Shown: positions 5,823 through 20,323 of the stretch, one piece after another
Layout of the letters: the number at the start of each line of letters is the position of its first letter
Position numbering within the stretch: position 1 is the stretch's first letter
From: Robertkochia solimangrovi
Lineage (GTDB): Bacteria > Bacteroidota > Bacteroidia > Flavobacteriales > Flavobacteriaceae
Direction of reading: 5' to 3'
DNA: 64,000 nt
Assembly: GCF_007279655.1 (NCBI RefSeq)
Contig: NZ_QKWN01000001.1
Span: 496,001-560,000, forward strand
Notes under the pieces: generated by a model
What the model was told of the DNA's origin: nothing
Databases searched by the model: none
Seen by the model: only the letters and a program-made list of their open reading frames with translations
Position numbers and translations under genes: made by a program

Positions 5823-7934
<2,112 letters not shown>

Positions 7935-11321: not shown

Positions 11322-11909
11322 TTAGAGTATACTATCCTGAAGCCGCAGGAGTCCGCGAAGCGTAAAAAGCGCTTTACTCATCTGATTTTTTACGGTCGAA
11401 ATTGAAATGCCTAAGATGTGACTGATCTCTTCGTAGGTTTTTTGTTCTTCCCGTGAAAGTGTGAAAATTGTTTTTCTTTTTGGCGGTAGTTTCTGTATGA
11501 TGGCCTGATGTAATCTTTTACAATCCTGTTCTTCCAGGTGTCGGTCGGCAGCCGGAGAATATACAGGTGTGTGATAAAAGATCTTTTCTTTCATTTTTGA
11601 ACTTCTTGATGCTCTGGAAAGCATGTTGAAGGCAAGATTTCTGGAAATGGTAAACACAAAGGCCTTAAAGGAGGAGTTCGGATCAAGATTTTCGCGGTGT
11701 AACCAGATTCTTAGGAAAACTTCCTGAACGACCTCTTCTGCCAAAACTTCATTTTTCAACAGACTGAAGGAGAAGGCATAGATCTGTGGTCTGTATTTAT
11801 CATACAGATATCGGAATGCCCTTTCATTTCCGGAGATCAGATGTAGTACCATCAGTTTGTCAGAAGTGGGTGTTGGTATCGATATTTTGTTAAGATTGGA
11901 AGCTCCCAT
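11322..11909 (-). CDS. ECF sigma-70 factor (Bacteroidota family)
   Basis: An RNA polymerase sigma factor of 195 aa. Sigma region 2 spans about residues 28-95 (FRYLYDKYRPQIYAFSFSLL and EVVQEVFLRIWLHR), and region 4 spans about 135-190 with the HTH TYEEISHILGISISTVKNQM. Such factors usually pair with FecR anti-sigma proteins and drive SusC/D operons through TonB-dependent signalling. Here the divergent neighbour is a SusC operon, but no fecR gene is adjacent and the SusC lacks an obvious N-terminal signalling extension. The missing partner makes regulation unclear. Confidence 0.92.
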   Translation of the reverse strand: MGASNLNKISIPTPTSDKLMVLHLISGNERAFRYLYDKYRPQIYAFSFSLLKNEVLAEEVVQEVFLRIWLHRENLDPNSSFKAFVFTISRNLAFNMLSRASRSSKMKEKIFYHTPVYSPAADRHLEEQDCKRLHQAIIQKLPPKRKTIFTLSREEQKTYEEISHILGISISTVKNQMSKALFTLRGLLRLQDSIL

Positions 11910-12464: not shown

Positions 12465-15400
12465 ATGCAAAAAAACTGTGTAAAGAGGGAAAGGGTGCTT
12501 TTCATATGCATTATTCTCGCTCTTTCAATTTATTCGAAAGCACTATTTGGTGCTGATCATACTACTGAATTAATCAATAGTAGCTTCTATCAGGAATTGT
12601 CCATCTCCGGAACTGTGACCTCTGATGCGGGAATTCCAATACCAGGAGTGACCGTTAAGATATCCGGTTACTCCAAAGGTACTTTAACCGATCAGGATGG
12701 GTCGTATACGATAACTGTTCAATCTGGTGAATCGCTGGAGTACGCTTATCTTGGGTTTCAATCCCAGATCATTAAGATCATCGATCAAACCTTGGTGAAT
12801 GTACAACTGAAAGAATCAGTCACGGACCTTGATGCGGTTACTGTAAATGCCGGATATTATAAGGTTTCTGAAAGAGAAAGAACCGGAAATATTTCCAGTA
12901 TAACTTCACGGGAGATAGAAAAGCAGCCTGTTTCAAATGCCTTACAAGCCTTGCAGGGCCGTTTACCCGGAATCAATATCACACAAAATACCGGTGTGCC
13001 GGGGGGAGGGTATTTGGTAAATATCCGAGGGCTCAACAGTATATCCAGTGGTAATGATCCATTTTATATTATCGATGGAGTTCCCTTCATTTCAGAATCG
13101 ATAATCTTACTGGGAAATGAAGTCATCTCAGGTGCAAATCCTCTGAGTACAATTCATCCGGATGATATCGAAAGTATTGAGGTTTTGAAGGATGCGGATG
13201 CAACCGCTATATACGGGTCGCGAGGTGCGAACGGAGTTATTCTGATCACTACTAAAAAAGGGCGTACCGATGGGGTTCATTTCGAGGTTAGATCTATGAC
13301 CGGAATTGGAAATGTACCACGCAAGGTGTCACTGCTCACTACATCACAATATATTGAAATGAGACGTGAAGCCTTTGAGAATGATGGTGTGGTACCTGAT
13401 GGAATAAATGCTCCTGATCTAACGCTATGGGATCAGGAAAAGGATATCGACTGGCAAGAAAAGTTACTTGGCGGTAATGCTTATACCCATGATATAAGAA
13501 CATCTATTTCAGGAGGGAACAAGAATTCACAGTTTTCCGTAAGAGGAAATTATTATGATGAATCCACAGTATATCCGGGAGAGAAAGGGTATGATCGCTG
13601 GTCTGTGAATTCGGCTATCAATCACAGATCGGACGATAACAGATTTCAATTTTCAGCTTCTTCACTATTTTCCAGAGAAACCAATACCTTACCTTATATC
13701 GATGTTACCAGAGAAGCACTTACGTTACCTCCGAATGCTCCTGATTTTCTGAATGAAGATGGTACCCTGAACTTCTATACTGATGTATCCAATCCTTTTG
13801 TGTATCTGAAGCAGCCGTATAAGAGCATTACAAAAAATTTGCTATTGAACAGTCAGGTCTCCTACGAATTGCTACCCGGACTCTCGCTTAAGACCGGAAT
13901 AGGATATAATCTATTGAACAGAGATGAGATCCAAAGTCGACCAGGGTCAACAATTGATCCCTCCTCAACTACTCAACCCTCTTCCAGATTTGGAAAAGTA
14001 ACTTCCGAAAGTTGGATTTTTGAACCACAGTTACAGTTCGTGAAGGAATTTCAATCACTCAGATTAGATCTTCTGCTCGGGTCGACCTTCCAGGAAAGAA
14101 CCAATGAACTGCAAGAGCTTCAGGCAACAGGTTTTAGTAATGATCATTTTCTTAATAATCCATCTGCCGCCGCTGAGTTGAGTATTAGCAACTACGATCA
14201 TAATCAATACCGTTATACCGCTTTGTTCGGGAGGATAAATTTTAAATGGAGAGATCGGTATCTGCTGAATATTACCGGGAGAAGAGACGGTAGTAGTAGG
14301 TTTGGTCCCGACAAGCAATTTGCCAATTTCGGTGCGGTCGGAATGGCCTGGATCTTCAGTAAGGAATCTTTTCTGAACGAGAATCTTGATTTTATAAGCT
14401 TTGGGAAACTCAGAGGTAGTTTTGGGGTGACCGGCAATGATCAGATCGGAGATTATGAATATCTCGACAGCTATTCTCCGACTACGTATGCATATAATGG
14501 TATTAGCGGACTCTACCCTTCCAGGTTGTTTAATCCAGTTTATGGCTGGGAAAGGAATCGAAAGTTGGAGGTGGCTCTGGAATTGGGATTTTTAGAGGAT
14601 CGTATTTTATTGAACAGCGCCTATTACCGGAATCGTTCTGACAATCAATTAGTAGGTATTCCACTTCCGGGAAGTACTGGTTTTTCAACGATCAGAGCTA
14701 ATTTACCTGCTGAAATTGAAAATACCGGACTTGAATTCGATCTTAAGGTCACGCTATTGCATGGGGGTAAGTTCTATTGGAATTCTGGTTTTAACATCAG
14801 TTTTCCGAAGACGGAATTATTGAAATATCCGGGATTGGAATCTTCCTCCTTCGCAAATATTTATGAAGAAGGACAATCGTTATATATAAAGAGGAAAATT
14901 CACCTGACAGGCGTAAATCCGGAAACCGGAGTTTATGATTTTGAAGATGTAGATGGAGATGGTATGATCTTCGCTCCTAATGATCTTCAATCTATATATG
15001 AACTGTCTCAGGATTACTATGGCGGATTCGCAAATAGTTTTCAATGGGGTAACTGGAACCTGGACCTGTTATTTCAGTTTGTAAAGCAAACGGGTGTAAA
15101 ATACGCACATTATCTCGCTCCGGGATTCCTATACAATCAACCGTCCTTTGTTTTGGATCGTTGGCAACATTCCGGGGATGTAACAGAAGTTCAACGATTT
15201 ACACAATCTTATACGGATGCGGGTTATGCATATAGTACAGCCCAGGTTCAAAGTGATTATATCTATGAGGATGCCTCATTCATTCGATGGAAGAATGTAA
15301 ATCTATCATACCGACTATCTGTTAAGGGAGCAAAGATAAGTGACATACGGCTTTATTTTCAGGGTCAAAATTTGCTGACAATAACGAAATATAAAGGGTT

Positions 15401-15473
15401 GGACCCGGAAAATCAAGGTTTTAGACTTCCTCCCTTGCGTCGCTTTGTATTTGGAATTGAGATCAAAATCTAA
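12465..15473 (+). CDS. SusC/RagA-family TonB-dependent transporter
   Basis: An outer-membrane beta-barrel transporter of 1002 aa that works with the SusD lipoprotein to import glycans, peptides or other large ligands using TonB energy. After a signal peptide comes a carboxypeptidase-regulatory-like domain (about 45-125, SISGTVTSDAGIPIPGVTVK). The plug follows (about 150-265), with QALQGRLPGINI, the conserved FYIIDGVPF, and ESIEVLKDADATAIYGSRGA ending in ILITTKKG. The barrel fills the rest and ends FGIEIKI, a terminal beta-strand. It is first in a susC–susD–tlpA operon behind the palindromic promoter at 12.1 kb. No carbohydrate enzymes flank it, so a peptide or protein substrate is at least as likely as a glycan. 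Confidence 0.95.
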   Translation: MQKNCVKRERVLFICIILALSIYSKALFGADHTTELINSSFYQELSISGTVTSDAGIPIPGVTVKISGYSKGTLTDQDGSYTITVQSGESLEYAYLGFQSQIIKIIDQTLVNVQLKESVTDLDAVTVNAGYYKVSERERTGNISSITSREIEKQPVSNALQALQGRLPGINITQNTGVPGGGYLVNIRGLNSISSGNDPFYIIDGVPFISESIILLGNEVISGANPLSTIHPDDIESIEVLKDADATAIYGSRGANGVILITTKKGRTDGVHFEVRSMTGIGNVPRKVSLLTTSQYIEMRREAFENDGVVPDGINAPDLTLWDQEKDIDWQEKLLGGNAYTHDIRTSISGGNKNSQFSVRGNYYDESTVYPGEKGYDRWSVNSAINHRSDDNRFQFSASSLFSRETNTLPYIDVTREALTLPPNAPDFLNEDGTLNFYTDVSNPFVYLKQPYKSITKNLLLNSQVSYELLPGLSLKTGIGYNLLNRDEIQSRPGSTIDPSSTTQPSSRFGKVTSESWIFEPQLQFVKEFQSLRLDLLLGSTFQERTNELQELQATGFSNDHFLNNPSAAAELSISNYDHNQYRYTALFGRINFKWRDRYLLNITGRRDGSSRFGPDKQFANFGAVGMAWIFSKESFLNENLDFISFGKLRGSFGVTGNDQIGDYEYLDSYSPTTYAYNGISGLYPSRLFNPVYGWERNRKLEVALELGFLEDRILLNSAYYRNRSDNQLVGIPLPGSTGFSTIRANLPAEIENTGLEFDLKVTLLHGGKFYWNSGFNISFPKTELLKYPGLESSSFANIYEEGQSLYIKRKIHLTGVNPETGVYDFEDVDGDGMIFAPNDLQSIYELSQDYYGGFANSFQWGNWNLDLLFQFVKQTGVKYAHYLAPGFLYNQPSFVLDRWQHSGDVTEVQRFTQSYTDAGYAYSTAQVQSDYIYEDASFIRWKNVNLSYRLSVKGAKISDIRLYFQGQNLLTITKYKGLDPENQGFRLPPLRRFVFGIEIKI

Positions 15474-15500
15474 CCTTTAATTTAAAATCGATAATTGAAT

Positions 15501-16892
15501 ATGAAAAATATTGTTCAAAAAATATATTTCCAAAAATTGACTCCTGTGGTATTCGGAATCTTATTGATAACTGTGGGTTGTGAAAATTTTACGGAGACTG
15601 AACTCCCGCGTACAGAGATGAGTACTGAAAGTGTTTTTACTGATGAAAAATCAACTGAAGCTGTGATCTCCGGCATTTATAGTCGGATGATCAGTTCTTT
15701 GGGATTCGCAGGTGGATATTTCTATAGTATAACAAATCAGGCAGGTTTGTCTTCAGGAGAATTGATGAGTCTGAGGCCACCTAATGCCTTTCAGGATTTT
15801 ACCCTTACTTCTGATGATACTTCTATTAGCAATTATCTATGGAACGAACCCTATAGCTATATCTATACGGTTAACAATGTTTTGGAGGCAGTGGAAAATG
15901 ATAATCATAGTACTGCTGAGAATAGGAACAGAATCAGTGGAGAGGCACATTTTATTCGTGCATTCTGCTATTTTTATCTCATTAATATGTTCGGAGATGT
16001 GCCTTTACATCTGACTACCGATTATCAAAAGAATTCAACCGCGTCCCGGACTGACACTAAAGTGATCTATGATCAGATCATAAAAGATCTTCTCATTGCG
16101 GTTGCGTACCTCCCGGAAGATTATACGATCTATGGAGGTGAAAGGATCCGTCCGACAACTGCGGTTGCCAAAGCCTTTCTTTCCAGGGTGTATCTTTATA
16201 CTGAAAACTGGAATGAGGCAGAGCGATTGGCGGATGAAGTGATTAGAATGGATGGAATCTATGCACTTACAGAAGATCTGAACCAGGTATTTTTAAAGGA
16301 TAGCAAAGAGGCGATTTGGCAGCTGAAACCTGTCAGGTCCGGATTGAATACTTTCGAAGGGTTCTGGTTCATTCCCCCCGGAAATTTTGCGGTCTCGGCT
16401 GAAATAAGCGATGAACTATTAATGGCATTCGAATCGGGGGATAAACGGGTAGATGACTGGATCAATACTGCAGACAATGGTCAATTTTCATGGTCGTATC
16501 CATACAAATACAAGATACGTTCCGGAGCTATCGTATCAGAGTATTCGGTTGTGATAAGACTAGCAGAACTCTTGCTTATAAGGGCGGAAGCCAGGGCTCA
16601 AACGGGAAAATTTCAAGAGTCACTTTCCGATGTAAATATAATTAGGGACAGGGCTGGCTTATCAGCATTGGAATTTAGCACATCTGAAGCACTGTTGCAG
16701 GATATCTATAAGGAACGGGAATTGGAACTCTTTGCTGAATGGGGACATCGCTGGTTCGACCTCAAAAGAACCGGAAGGGCTGAAGAAGTGCTTGGAAGCA
16801 GACCAAACTGGAATGAATCCAGGCAATTGTATCCAATTCCATTGGATGAAATTACCAGAAACTCCAATATATCTCAGAATCCAGGTTATTGA
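15501..16892 (+). CDS. RagB/SusD-family substrate-binding lipoprotein
   Basis: A surface lipoprotein that caps the SusC barrel and captures substrate, 463 aa. The signal peptide ends with the lipobox ITVGC. The N-terminal region has the SusD-like ESVFTDEKSTEAVISGIY, the middle shows SGEAHFIRAFCYFYLINMFGDVP (a SusD hallmark), and the C-terminus has the RagB/SusD motif ELELFAEWGHRWFDLKRTGR followed by LYPIPLDEI. The ATG at 15501 is chosen over the TTG at 15495. It follows susC by 27 bases and precedes the thioredoxin gene by 26, so one transcript is expected. The ligand cannot be read from the sequence. Confidence 0.95.
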   Translation: MKNIVQKIYFQKLTPVVFGILLITVGCENFTETELPRTEMSTESVFTDEKSTEAVISGIYSRMISSLGFAGGYFYSITNQAGLSSGELMSLRPPNAFQDFTLTSDDTSISNYLWNEPYSYIYTVNNVLEAVENDNHSTAENRNRISGEAHFIRAFCYFYLINMFGDVPLHLTTDYQKNSTASRTDTKVIYDQIIKDLLIAVAYLPEDYTIYGGERIRPTTAVAKAFLSRVYLYTENWNEAERLADEVIRMDGIYALTEDLNQVFLKDSKEAIWQLKPVRSGLNTFEGFWFIPPGNFAVSAEISDELLMAFESGDKRVDDWINTADNGQFSWSYPYKYKIRSGAIVSEYSVVIRLAELLLIRAEARAQTGKFQESLSDVNIIRDRAGLSALEFSTSEALLQDIYKERELELFAEWGHRWFDLKRTGRAEEVLGSRPNWNESRQLYPIPLDEITRNSNISQNPGY

Positions 16893-16918
16893 AATTAGCG
16901 CTATAAAAATCATTGAAG

Positions 16919-18511
16919 ATGAAACTTAGAATATTGATATTACTGGTTCTTCAGTTCAGTTTCATTTCTTGTGCAAGAAATGTTAGGGAACGAAATGAAT
17001 CGGACAAGAATTGCGTAGTCATTAAAGGTCGCGTTGAAGGCGATGCTAAGAAATTTAAGAATATTAAGATCAATTTCGGTCATCTGTTTATGGTCAATCC
17101 AAAAATAAATGCGATCGACACCATGCTTAGTATTTCAAAAGGAGGGGACTTTTATTTTAAATCCGCTCCAATCGATAGACCCACACGTATCAATATCATT
17201 CCAAGTGCTGCTGATATGCATCCGGGAAATGCTAATTATACAAATTCACTACGAAATTATCTCGTGGAGCCAGGAGACAGTATCTTTATTAACATAAACC
17301 TGAATAATGATTTATTGGTTTGGGAGTTTTCTGGAAAAGGAGCAGCTAAATTTGAAGTGAAATGGGAATTTCAGGTGTTCTATCATACTTCTAAAAAAAC
17401 ATTTTTGAATAAGCAGGAACCGGTGAATTCTTGGGTAGAATATTATCAAAACTTATTTCGTACCGGGGATTCCCTAACTTCATGTTTTCAACATAGATTG
17501 AATAGATACAGAGACCGACTTTCACCCCAGACCTTTGAAGTTGTCCAGGCAGATTTTACCGGCAAGCTCAATTTCTTTTATAAGAATTTTTGGTTTGTCA
17601 GGAACAGTTACCTTACTCCGGAGAACCTTATGATTTTGCGAAAACTGTATGCATCCATATCCACCGAAGCGATGAGTAATGAAACAATGGCTCAATCCAT
17701 GGAAATGGTGAATTATTTAATTTATTATGAGATCATGGGGGCATTGCTGGATAACCCAAAGGATGAAGATTTATATTTTCAGAATATATTTAATCGGAAA
17801 TATGCCGAAATCTGTAATTTATTGCAAACGCATTATGACGGGCCATTGAGGGAGATGCTGATCATGAATTATCTTTTGAATAATTTTACAGGGGACACCA
17901 CCGGATGGAATAACTGTGCCATTAATAGTGTATCGTTTATACAATCTGAACCATTGAAATCGATATTTGAAAAGTTGAACAATCATCAGATAAAAGGATC
18001 CAAAGGTTATGACTTTTCCCTTCCTGATGCGCAAGGGGTTTACGTTGATCTTCATGATTTCAAAGGGAAAGTGGTATATCTGGAAATATGGTTTACCGGA
18101 TGTTCAGGCTGTATTGCATTGACCAAGGAAATCAAGGAAAAGCTTTATCCCCGGTTTCGCAATAATAAAGAGATTGTTTTTGTTACAGTTTGTGTGGATA
18201 AGGACAAACAAAAATGGCTGCACAGCTTAGCTACCGAACGATATTCTTCGCCCGATTTTGTAAACCTCTATACGGAAGGATCAGGACTAAAACATCCTTT
18301 TGCTAACTATTATAATGTAGCAGCTGCACCGACCACAATGGTCTTTGATAAACAAGGAAATATTTTTTCGAGTAGACCACCAAAGCACGGTAAAATGGAT
18401 GCATTAGAGGAGTTGCTCATGGAAGCGATAAATTTTGAACCACTCAAAGCAGATTCATCGAATAGCGAATCAGATGATCTTCATATAAGACAACCAGATA
18501 ATCAGCGATAA
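16919..18511 (+). CDS. TlpA-family thioredoxin lipoprotein
   Basis: A periplasmic, membrane-tethered thiol-disulfide protein of 530 aa. The signal peptide ends FSFISC, a lipobox. Residues about 25-200 form a beta-rich domain resembling the DUF4369-like N-terminus of Bacteroidota TlpA proteins, followed by a helical stretch. The C-terminal thioredoxin fold (about 365-500) holds the active site FTGCSGCIAL (Cys near 393 and 396) and the cis-Pro loop AAAPTTMVFD. The ATG at 16919 replaces the TTG at 16913. It is third in the SusCD operon, and its end overlaps the convergent gene at 18444 by 68 bases. Together with MauE across the junction it suggests disulfide chemistry on a secreted substrate. 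Confidence 0.85.
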   Translation: MKLRILILLVLQFSFISCARNVRERNESDKNCVVIKGRVEGDAKKFKNIKINFGHLFMVNPKINAIDTMLSISKGGDFYFKSAPIDRPTRINIIPSAADMHPGNANYTNSLRNYLVEPGDSIFININLNNDLLVWEFSGKGAAKFEVKWEFQVFYHTSKKTFLNKQEPVNSWVEYYQNLFRTGDSLTSCFQHRLNRYRDRLSPQTFEVVQADFTGKLNFFYKNFWFVRNSYLTPENLMILRKLYASISTEAMSNETMAQSMEMVNYLIYYEIMGALLDNPKDEDLYFQNIFNRKYAEICNLLQTHYDGPLREMLIMNYLLNNFTGDTTGWNNCAINSVSFIQSEPLKSIFEKLNNHQIKGSKGYDFSLPDAQGVYVDLHDFKGKVVYLEIWFTGCSGCIALTKEIKEKLYPRFRNNKEIVFVTVCVDKDKQKWLHSLATERYSSPDFVNLYTEGSGLKHPFANYYNVAAAPTTMVFDKQGNIFSSRPPKHGKMDALEELLMEAINFEPLKADSSNSESDDLHIRQPDNQR

Positions 18512-19493
18512 TAATGAAGTCGCGAACATTTTGATCTTTATATTCCGGAATATAAAAACTGTATAGATATGTATTGGATTGGAGCGAATAAATATCCACT
18601 ACAGTATTGTTCTGAAATGTTCGCGGCATTTCATTGGAAGCTCGGATCGCTGACTGAACAAATAAGTTGTTTCTACTAACTTGTCCTCTTACATTTACAA
18701 CTTTGTTCGGAGAGGAAAGCGTCGTTTTAACCTGATTATTTCTTTTGTAACTCCCAACAGCGATTCGGACATTTTGAATGTTATCTATGGTATGACCCGT
18801 TCCTAAAAGCTGTAGATCTGTATTCATGGTAAAAAATTCATTACGATACCGATACAGATATATAAATCGTTTATACATCGGATCATAAACTAAATCTCCT
18901 TCCGTACAAAATATGCCGTCTACCTGCTTTTTTAATAATCCAGGGCTGTTTATTACCTTGTTGCTATGCAAATTATACTTTAGAAGAATGCTTTGTTGCT
19001 TCTCAGGATCATAGGTTTTAAGAATTACACAGGTGCTGTCGATAGGATATAAATTCATGAAACCGGGATATACTCCTGCGATTCGTTTGAGTGATTGTGA
19101 AGAGAATGGAGTGAAGAAAATATTGGGAGAAATTCCTTCAGCCATGAAAATACCGGAGTCGCAGACCTTCATTTTTAATAATTTCCAGGCAATTTTTCCT
19201 TTATACAAAAGGTTTATCGGGATCGACCTGGTTTCATGATCTGTTGTTGAATAAACCGAATATGCCATTGAAATTCCAGCATTATGCATATAGATATCAT
19301 CACCGACATAACCAATCAGGTTCGTATTGTTTGTAATCGGCATGATCTTGAATTCCGATAATACGTGCGGCGGAAAAATGCGAACAAATCCGTTTTCAGG
19401 TAGTTTGGGACTCTTTGAAAACTCATAAATACCCATTACCATAATCAGGCTAAGCACTGCTGTAATGATCAAGTAGAATATTCTGTTTCTCAT
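18444..19493 (-). CDS. Membrane-anchored beta-propeller-like protein, unknown function
   Basis: A 349-aa protein with one N-terminal membrane anchor (MRNRIFYLIITAVLSLIMVMGIY) and a periplasmic body made of short beta-rich segments such as TDLQLLGTG, RFIYLYRYRNEFF and DFIIIADYLVVLYEDHL, which resemble propeller blades. I do not recognise a named family. It ends MNLL and overlaps the tlpA end on the opposite strand by 68 bases. It is the last gene of the MauE–DUF6520 operon, separated from DUF6520 by a hairpin that may lower its expression. It could be a receptor or scaffold for the small peptide, which is inference. Confidence 0.6.
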   Translation of the reverse strand: MRNRIFYLIITAVLSLIMVMGIYEFSKSPKLPENGFVRIFPPHVLSEFKIMPITNNTNLIGYVGDDIYMHNAGISMAYSVYSTTDHETRSIPINLLYKGKIAWKLLKMKVCDSGIFMAEGISPNIFFTPFSSQSLKRIAGVYPGFMNLYPIDSTCVILKTYDPEKQQSILLKYNLHSNKVINSPGLLKKQVDGIFCTEGDLVYDPMYKRFIYLYRYRNEFFTMNTDLQLLGTGHTIDNIQNVRIAVGSYKRNNQVKTTLSSPNKVVNVRGQVSRNNLFVQSAIRASNEMPRTFQNNTVVDIYSLQSNTYLYSFYIPEYKDQNVRDFIIIADYLVVLYEDHLIRYSMNLL

Positions 19494-19508
19494 TTTTATG
19501 GAATTAAA

Positions 19509-19536
19509 ACTCAGGAACTGCCTTCAGTTCCTGAGT
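19509..19536 (-). terminator. Hairpin between DUF6520 gene and downstream gene
   Basis: ACTCAGGAACTG (19509-19520) pairs with CAGTTCCTGAGT (19525-19536) over a four-base loop. On the minus strand it follows the DUF6520 stop by seven bases, with a weak T-run (TTTTAATT). It probably acts as a partial terminator or 3' stabiliser that lets the small peptide be made in excess. Confidence 0.55.
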
Positions 19537-19543
19537 GATTTAA

Positions 19544-19789
19544 TCAAGGCCGATAAGAAAGTACTACCGGCGTATTACAGGTACTTGCATTTTGTTTTTG
19601 CTCATACACGGTGAACGTACAGATGTCACCCGTATTTAACGGATCACAATCGGTAACAATACACGCAGATCCCTCTTGTTTGTAATATTGCTCCTGCATA
19701 TTTTCCGTTGCGGAATTTTTCCCGGCAAAGGCTGCCAGTACAGCAAGGAGTAATACACTACTACTCATTAAAACTTTAAGATTTTTCAT
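19544..19789 (-). CDS. DUF6520-type exported four-cysteine peptide
   Basis: A small exported protein of 81 aa: signal peptide MKNLKVLMSSSVLLLAVLAAFA followed by a mature peptide of about 59 residues. It has four cysteines (in SACIV, TDCDP, DICTF and STCNT), enough for two disulfides. The layout matches the DUF6520 family of Bacteroidota as I recall it; function is not established. It lies 15 bases downstream of the MauE-like gene and opposite a TlpA thioredoxin gene. Both neighbours are disulfide-pathway proteins, which suggests the peptide is their substrate. A hairpin directly follows the gene. Confidence 0.75.
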   Translation of the reverse strand: MKNLKVLMSSSVLLLAVLAAFAGKNSATENMQEQYYKQEGSACIVTDCDPLNTGDICTFTVYEQKQNASTCNTPVVLSYRP

Positions 19790-19804
19790 AATTCAAGTAT
19801 TTAA

Positions 19805-20323
19805 TCAATTGTACCTACTCTTTTCAAGGTTTTCGGTATCCCCTTCCTCATCGCGATAATATTTTGGTTTATTTTGATTTCGGCTTATCGGGGGGTGGAA
19901 TTTTGGATAGATGAGAATCGATAATATGCTGATCATTAGCAGGATCATATTGAATACAAGATGTGCTTTCCAATTCAACTTTTCAAGAATACCTCCACAG
20001 GAACAAGGGATATACGGACTAAGGTTCAAAATGATAAGGATGTATGCGGTAAACATTAACATCAGACTAAATGATAGATACATCGCTATTAGCCGATAAT
20101 GTGTTGTAAAAAGAGCTAAGGCTATTAATATTTCAAGAATGGGGATAACCCAAACCAAGATATCGGCCAGACTTGTAAGTACGGGTGATTGTGTAAGTTG
20201 TATTCGGAACTTATCAAACTCCAGCAATTTACTGACTGCCGCATATGCGAAAAGCAGAATGAAGATCATACAAGATACTTCGAAGATCAAATTCCGTAAC
20301 TTAATATGTTGAAATGTTTCCAT
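19805..20323 (-). CDS. MauE/DoxX-like redox-associated membrane protein
   Basis: A four-helix inner-membrane protein of 172 aa. Helices fall near residues 14-33, 47-67, 72-95 and 118-138; a CSCGG motif (about residues 109-113) sits in the loop before the last helix. The layout matches MauE, which together with the thioredoxin-like MauD is needed for disulfide-rich methylamine dehydrogenase small subunit. No mau structural genes are present here. The C-tail is hydrophilic (NQNKPKYYRDEEGDTENLEK). It is the first gene of the operon with DUF6520, so the likely role is thiol oxidation of that exported peptide. Confidence 0.8.
   Translation of the reverse strand: METFQHIKLRNLIFEVSCMIFILLFAYAAVSKLLEFDKFRIQLTQSPVLTSLADILVWVIPILEILIALALFTTHYRLIAMYLSFSLMLMFTAYILIILNLSPYIPCSCGGILEKLNWKAHLVFNMILLMISILSILIYPKFHPPISRNQNKPKYYRDEEGDTENLEKSRYN

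Follow-up and report, generated by a model that had tools for sequence, protein, structure and literature searches.

Why does an outer-membrane importer operon of the SusCD type run head-on into genes for a membrane redox protein, a small cysteine-containing peptide and a propeller, and do the two gene sets belong together? The question is raised by a stretch of 64,000 nucleotides from Robertkochia solimangrovi (contig NZ_QKWN01000001.1, positions 496,001 to 560,000; hereafter the window), in which two operons converge: SusC–SusD–TlpA on the plus strand (12465-18511) and MauE–DUF6520–propeller on the minus strand (20323-18444), with the TlpA and propeller genes overlapping tail to tail by 68 bp (Table 1). 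A first-pass annotation, made from the letters alone, had named a SusC/SusD pair, a TlpA protein with CSGC, a MauE-like protein with CSCGG, a four-cysteine DUF6520 peptide and an anchored beta-rich protein, and had proposed that MauE and TlpA mature the peptide. These gene identities and their coordinates are all borne out, and in a profile search the named families (SusC, SusD, TlpA, MauE, DUF6520) all exceed curated cut-offs; for the anchored protein of 349 aa there is no Pfam or NCBIfam match. As set out below, the two converging operons are one conserved system, to which we refer as the cassette.

The converging operons are one system

Related loci were collected in two overlapping sets. 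A search of 392 Bacteroidota genomes with the DUF6520 model PF20130 matched 35 at E 0.001, 26 of them over the cut-off, and gave 45 places, 40 of which were fetched with 6 kb per side; this DUF6520 set omits the window itself, an additional peptide at locus G385 and three partial hits inside long frames (G160, G092, G159). The propeller set was built from an alignment of the 349-aa family, which found 419 relatives in named genomes, and the best 79 loci, mostly from Flavobacterium and Flavivirga, were kept. MauE lies beside DUF6520 in 38 of the 40 fetched loci, a co-occurrence that the first-pass annotation had put forward as a check, and 27 of these MauE-bearing loci also have the 349-aa propeller. 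Where at least 6 kb of downstream DNA was available, SusD was convergent in 36/36 DUF6520 loci and SusC in 35/36; for propeller loci with enough DNA the figures are 67/73 and 69/73, and a peptide candidate (at least three cysteines, at least 70 aa) was found near 77 of the 79.

The linkage is equally visible within one genus. In 81 Flavobacterium genomes, the MauE–propeller and peptide profiles match the same 41. The MauE–propeller search gave 81 rows, of which 71 were kept after dropping six rows that were MauE or edge halves of genes already listed and four lone or broken pieces, and in all 71 kept places the peptide gene follows directly on the same strand (median gap 109 bp, largest 220); conversely, of the 78 peptide places, 77 have a MauE–propeller gene no more than 4 kb away. 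Of the SusD genes of at least 490 bits, 64 of 68 face a peptide gene at most 8 kb away, without exception encoded on the other strand, and of those below 490 bits 1 of 23 does; this line was set after seeing a gap between 495 and 453 bits, and over all rows 65 of 91 have a peptide within 8 kb. Among 20 other SusCD loci of 18-19 kb, taken as controls from four genomes (eight from that of the window), none matched the MauE, propeller, S9, zincin, TlpA or peptide profiles. Gene order within the peptide operon is permuted while its content is kept: MauE–peptide–propeller in the window and L040, MauE–propeller–peptide in Flavobacterium, and peptide–MauE–propeller in L050 and L057.

Because of the counts in the DUF6520 and propeller loci and in Flavobacterium, set against 0/20 in the controls, we conclude that the facing operons belong together, as the first-pass annotation had supposed. 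The abundance of SusC genes (four genomes have no fewer than 45 each) might make one expect that two unrelated operons simply converged by chance; for the family this is refuted by the same counts and controls and by a cassette-specific SusC branch, such that a chance neighbourhood, now with next to no probability, was rejected. In a tree of 107 SusC sequences, all 68 that come from propeller cassettes, that of the window among them, group in one branch (support 0.991) with none of the 30 background SusCs inside, these being the 30 best-scoring rather than a random draw.

A peptidase usually takes the third place in the facing operon

In 36 DUF6520 loci, the third gene of the facing operon encodes an S9 peptidase in 25 cases, a met-zincin in 2 and a TlpA-like protein in 9. 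Since a peptidase is thus present in 27 of 36, the TlpA of the window is the less common version and sits where most relatives have a peptidase. The 73 propeller loci that could be read show S9 in 64, a zincin in 2 and no matched gene in 7, i.e., a peptidase in 66. In most of the nine TlpA-like DUF6520 loci the TlpA gene lies before SusC, as it does in most loci without propeller, whereas in the window it follows SusD. One locus (L040) has a thioredoxin-like protein together with an S8 peptidase.

TlpA as an obligatory partner was therefore rejected, and the co-occurrence of DUF6520 with TlpA expected by the first-pass annotation did not hold up. Its proposal that MauE and TlpA act jointly on the disulfides of the peptide, forming and sorting them in the way known for MauE and MauD in methylamine dehydrogenase, can point to the adjacency of MauE and to the GCSGC motif retained by the TlpA of the window, but it has to contend with the predominance of peptidases over TlpA-like proteins and with the one- and two-cysteine peptides found in the same place (see below), which make it very improbable. 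What may stand of this proposal is the part of MauE, which fits the fusions and the invariant motif described next; what falls is TlpA as the usual partner.

MauE and the propeller

MauE and the propeller are one unit. They are fused into a single protein in 25 of 40 DUF6520 loci and 61 of 79 propeller loci, and the PCSCGG motif is invariant in 41 fused relatives, which is consistent with a role of MauE in forming the disulfides of the peptide. The 349-aa protein aligns with 26 relatives at 23-29% identity with 19 invariant columns, and a PDB sequence search with it returned no match. A model of the fused relative L054 from Flavobacterium limi (pLDDT 87.6, pTM 0.84) has helices from 7 to 140, a long helix from 147 to 177 and strands from 190 on, the latter folding into a propeller. 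PCSCGG lies in a loop between a helix ending at 99 and one starting at 116. Because the helices can be counted from the propeller, this loop would lie on the periplasmic side, provided that the propeller is itself periplasmic.

The best structural match of the L054 propeller is 3s9j, a DUF4221 protein of Bacteroides vulgatus (Z 19.5, rmsd 3.5 over 290 residues). NHL propellers rank next, and since their Z of 18.2 is close behind, the comparison speaks for the propeller fold and not for a particular family. The heavy chains of methylamine dehydrogenase appear at Foldseek ranks 41, 46 and 47, among many generic propellers.

The DUF6520 peptide

The cysteines of the window peptide (43, 48, 57 and 71) correspond to four positions that are invariant across 48 aligned peptides. 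Exactly four cysteines after residue 25 are found in 101 of 104 distinct peptide candidates, a figure that is partly one of choice, as the candidates were selected with at least three cysteines and at least 70 aa, while the count from the alignment-based peptide profile is free of that filter. Behind the last cysteine, 72 of the 104 carry an L[YFW][RK] tail, as compared to 2.3 expected from shuffled tails. Judged from its N-terminus, the pre-peptide probably crosses the inner membrane. In ordinary signal peptides one expects the leader to be less conserved than the mature part; here the reverse is seen, with a mean identity of 0.434 for the leader and 0.304 for the mature part in 44 cassettes. 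One genome (G440; L194, 9428-11855) has five DUF6520 genes in tandem before a single SusCD–S9 set. A PDB sequence search with the peptide gave a best E of 0.82, the NVEALA family PF14055 matched neither in G000 nor the window peptide, and a literature search for DUF6520, which covered few subscription journals, found no paper.

Small disulfide peptides with a conserved leader, a variable mature part, tandem copies, an adjoining degrading enzyme and conjugation genes nearby (see below) would suit an antimicrobial of the bacteriocin kind, the producer being protected by SusCD and the peptidase or reductase through uptake and destruction. We nevertheless regard this as improbable: none of the loci read showed a match to a dedicated exporter, and the peptide is kept in cassettes without a matching SusD, where an unprotected toxin would be disallowed unless its target differs. 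The bacteriocin model JUQZ (NCBIfam), which derives from a Brevibacillus peptide, reached 13.2 bits (E 0.08) against a cut-off of 40 and was set aside.

SusCD–S9 loci without an adjacent MauE–propeller

From the 23 loci with weaker SusD genes (below 490 bits), 15 were fetched, of which nine contain S9. These nine (L198-L206), which have no adjacent MauE–propeller and sit outside the cassette SusC branch, all face a gene for a small predicted exported peptide (in L202 from an internal start); at the six loci without S9, no facing peptide was seen. An extra S9 search mostly returned S9 genes encoding some 950 aa. Five regions were fetched from it: two (L233, L236) contain the cassette, and beside the three S9 genes without SusD (L234, L235, L237) no peptide was seen. 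Because all nine SusCD–S9 loci lacking an adjacent MauE–propeller also face peptides, the core pairing looks like one between an exported peptide and the SusCD–peptidase set, with MauE–propeller as a helper.

The cysteine counts of the nine peptides are 4, 4, 4, 2, 2 and 2 in two genomes (G385, G407) that have MauE–propeller elsewhere, and 1, 1 and 1 in a genome without it (G430), where two of the loci are near copies. This would fit a MauE–propeller that serves peptides with paired cysteines, as seen in very few genomes. As peptides with as few as one cysteine face SusCD–S9, disulfides are not what ties the peptide to SusCD, and the idea of such a link is weakened.

The facing peptide at nine of nine such loci, together with its absence beside the three S9 genes without SusD, could also mean that the peptide stays in the periplasm, where it would serve the peptidase or TlpA and the SusCD complex as accessory subunit or chaperone, or inhibit them. 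The cassette would then import foreign peptides like RagAB, and MauE–propeller would just fold a helper. The peptide has an N-terminal export signal only, its L[YFW][RK] tail could dock in an enzyme, and the operon is of the peptide-uptake type, SusCD–peptidase loci of Flavobacterium collinsii being assigned to oligopeptides in PMC10132118. It would be odd, however, for a specific inhibitor to belong to one peptide family that occurs with four unrelated enzymes (S9, met-zincin, S8, TlpA), tandem arrays as in G440 fit a subunit poorly, and the divergence of the peptide does not follow that of S9 (see below). We consider a purely periplasmic helper rather unlikely.

A possible route for the peptide

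The reading that we favour, tentatively and at a little less than an even chance, is that MauE–propeller matures the peptide in the periplasm and that SusCD together with the peptidase or TlpA handles it. The DUF6520 pre-peptide would be exported through the inner membrane, where MauE, its CxC loop facing the periplasm, would help to form the two disulfides, and the propeller docked on MauE might hold or fold the peptide. The facing SusCD importer would then be dedicated to the mature peptide as its ligand or substrate, and in the periplasm the third enzyme would either degrade the peptide (the peptidase of most relatives) or open its disulfides (the TlpA-like reductase of the window).

Hints that the peptide contacts the propeller and SusC come from partial correlations of distances in 44 dereplicated of 56 complete cassettes. 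The distances of the mature peptide follow those of the propeller (r 0.187, p 0.002) and SusC (r 0.185, p 0.008) with the other parts held constant, but not those of S9 (r -0.017), SusD (0.043) or MauE (0.088), while the leader follows SusC (0.228, p 0.006) and SusD (0.162, p 0.004); the correlations are weak, the ten tests are uncorrected, shared ancestry is ignored, and the window, having no S9, is excluded.

This weakness counts against the favoured reading, as do several further observations. We found no route by which the peptide could cross the outer membrane, and its binding by SusCD is putative; the fold model of the peptide was poor (pLDDT 60.5) and was left unused. The propeller is missing in 11 of the 38 loci that have MauE and the peptide, and the four lone or broken MauE/propeller pieces dropped from the Flavobacterium rows have no peptide near them. 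Six cassettes keep the peptide and MauE–propeller without a matching SusD within 8 kb on the contig, and two places (G413 and G398:C22) carry a cassette-type SusCD–S9 at which no peptide was found, the one in G413 also being without MauE–propeller, which argues against a strict pairing. Finally, eight of nine SusCs from loci without propeller fall on another branch of the SusC tree.

Mobility

The cassette is, to judge by its neighbourhood, cargo of conjugative elements: of 69 named loci that span at least 15 kb, 30 have a relaxase gene no farther than about 6 kb from MauE–propeller. Flavobacterium sp. IB48 and F. frigidimaris share a 21-kb stretch at 99.94% identity, and F. cupreum and F. geliluteum share 11.6 kb at 99.96%. 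In the window, no such mobility genes were seen within 9-24 kb.

Relaxase, MobC/NikA-like and TraG-like genes often stand beside the cassette (L053, L063, L084, L088 and others; L188-L191). In eight loci (L187, L188, L189, L190, L074, L089, L106 and L110, the last being the same as L192), S9 is reduced to its C-terminal part, and in all eight shortened genes the homology sets in at identical codons, those of the catalytic serine motif (GL[IM]|GHSFGG); a truncated TraG piece then follows in L188, L189, L190 and L074, and also in L191. A short common site may guide recombination at these shortened S9 genes.

If the favoured route is taken one step further, a self-made disulfide peptide would be released, retaken by the producer's own TonB-dependent SusCD and then degraded or reduced, amounting to a peptide exchange (as signal, cargo carrier or lure) that conjugative elements have spread among Flavobacteriaceae. 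We hold this to be possible, though on the doubtful side.

Layout of the window

Table 1. Genes of the two converging operons and their neighbours in the window
Feature	Length	Position	Strand	Basis and remarks
SusC-type TonB-dependent outer-membrane protein	1002 aa	12465..15473	+	TIGR04056, 702.9 bits
SusD-type lipoprotein lid	465 aa	15495..16892	+	PF14322, PF07980; lipobox-like ITVGC in sequence
TlpA/redoxin-like protein	532 aa	16913..18511	+	PF13905, PF08534; GCSGC active-site motif; lipobox-like FISC in sequence
Membrane-anchored propeller	349 aa	18444..19493	−	Alignment with relatives; fold of fused relative
DUF6520 predicted exported four-cysteine peptide	81 aa	19544..19789	−	PF20130, 31 bits, cut-off 25.4
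MauE-like membrane protein	172 aa	19805..20323	−	PF07291, 105 bits; PCSCGG
PAS + AraC-type protein, probable regulator	307 aa	20422..21345	−	PF12833, PF13426
DUF7793 protein	125 aa	21468..21845	−	PF25056; adjoins AraC gene
ECF sigma factor		11322-11909	divergent from SusC	
Doubtful open reading frame between sigma factor and SusC	90 aa	12159-12431		without convincing family match
GH97 (glycoside hydrolase family 97)		5823-7931	opposite to SusC	

The SusCD operon of the window consists of SusC, SusD and TlpA only, with no carbohydrate-active enzyme inside it. The earlier remark that no carbohydrate enzymes are nearby was too strong, as a GH97 gene is located some 4.5 kb ahead of SusC, separated from it by four genes and a doubtful open reading frame. 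The AraC-type regulator and DUF7793 genes, which precede MauE on the minus strand, were matched in 13/38 and 9/38 related loci of the DUF6520 set and in 24/79 and 19/79 of the propeller set, respectively, and the ECF sigma factor in the window alone among 120 loci.

Comparison with known systems

SusCD importers of oligopeptides are known (PMC10132118, PMC9723704, PMC11817032), among them, as stated in PMC10132118, RagAB of Porphyromonas gingivalis and BT2263-2264 of Bacteroides thetaiotaomicron. The cassette resembles them in having a SusC–SusD pair without a sugar enzyme in the operon and, in most relatives, an adjoining peptidase, the place of which is taken by TlpA in the window; it differs in that the operon is faced by a self-encoded predicted exported peptide with MauE and a propeller. 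We know of no such combination described beside RagAB.

With the mau cluster, the cassette shares a membrane protein of the MauE family, a small disulfide protein and a propeller. However, the propeller here has DUF4221 as its best fold match, the third enzyme is usually a peptidase, and the small mau subunit carries a tryptophan-derived cofactor, whereas tryptophan is absent from the DUF6520 protein of the window. The window proteins that were scanned showed neither a quinone-cofactor subunit nor MauG nor a copper protein. A methylamine-dehydrogenase-like enzyme is thus unsupported, and of the analogy drawn by the first-pass annotation only MauE is left.

Small exported peptides and propellers are, by gene neighbourhood, recurrent partners in Bacteroidota, because in G238 a DUF4221 gene stands between two NVEALA peptide genes (L167, L175, L180, L182 and L183 being regions in which a peptide adjoins a DUF4221 propeller lipoprotein), and because 4 of 15 additional regions with a DUF4221 gene (L175, L180, L182, L183; judged by eye, with no chance level) have a small predicted exported cysteine peptide next to it. 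These sets resemble the cassette in that a gene for a small exported cysteine peptide adjoins one for a propeller of this fold, but peptide and propeller belong to other sequence families, and the MauE, cassette-type propeller and SusD profiles had no match among the results for the DUF4221 regions. Literature searches, in which few subscription journals were covered, returned no paper on NVEALA, only an unrelated mention for DUF4221/BF3164/BVU_1028, and no description of the whole gene set.

In candidate RiPP clusters of Streptomyces found with decRiPPter, MauE lies beside a cysteine-rich precursor peptide that it is proposed to modify, according to the accessible part of PMC7794033. Those clusters are from another phylum and have precursors with at least eight of some residue, and SusCD and a propeller go unmentioned in that part of the source (PMC7794033).

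Implications

SusCD pairs without sugar enzymes are common, and most have no assigned substrate. Here, a whole SusC branch is tied gene by gene to a small predicted exported peptide encoded beside it, and should this peptide prove to be the ligand, the neighbouring gene would tell what a large class of orphan importers takes as substrate, in a form open to immediate testing. MauE outside of methylamine dehydrogenase would, if this is true, gain a defined client, and the undescribed propeller fused to it would gain a use. The apparent spread of the cassette on conjugative elements suggests that its recipients benefit from it.

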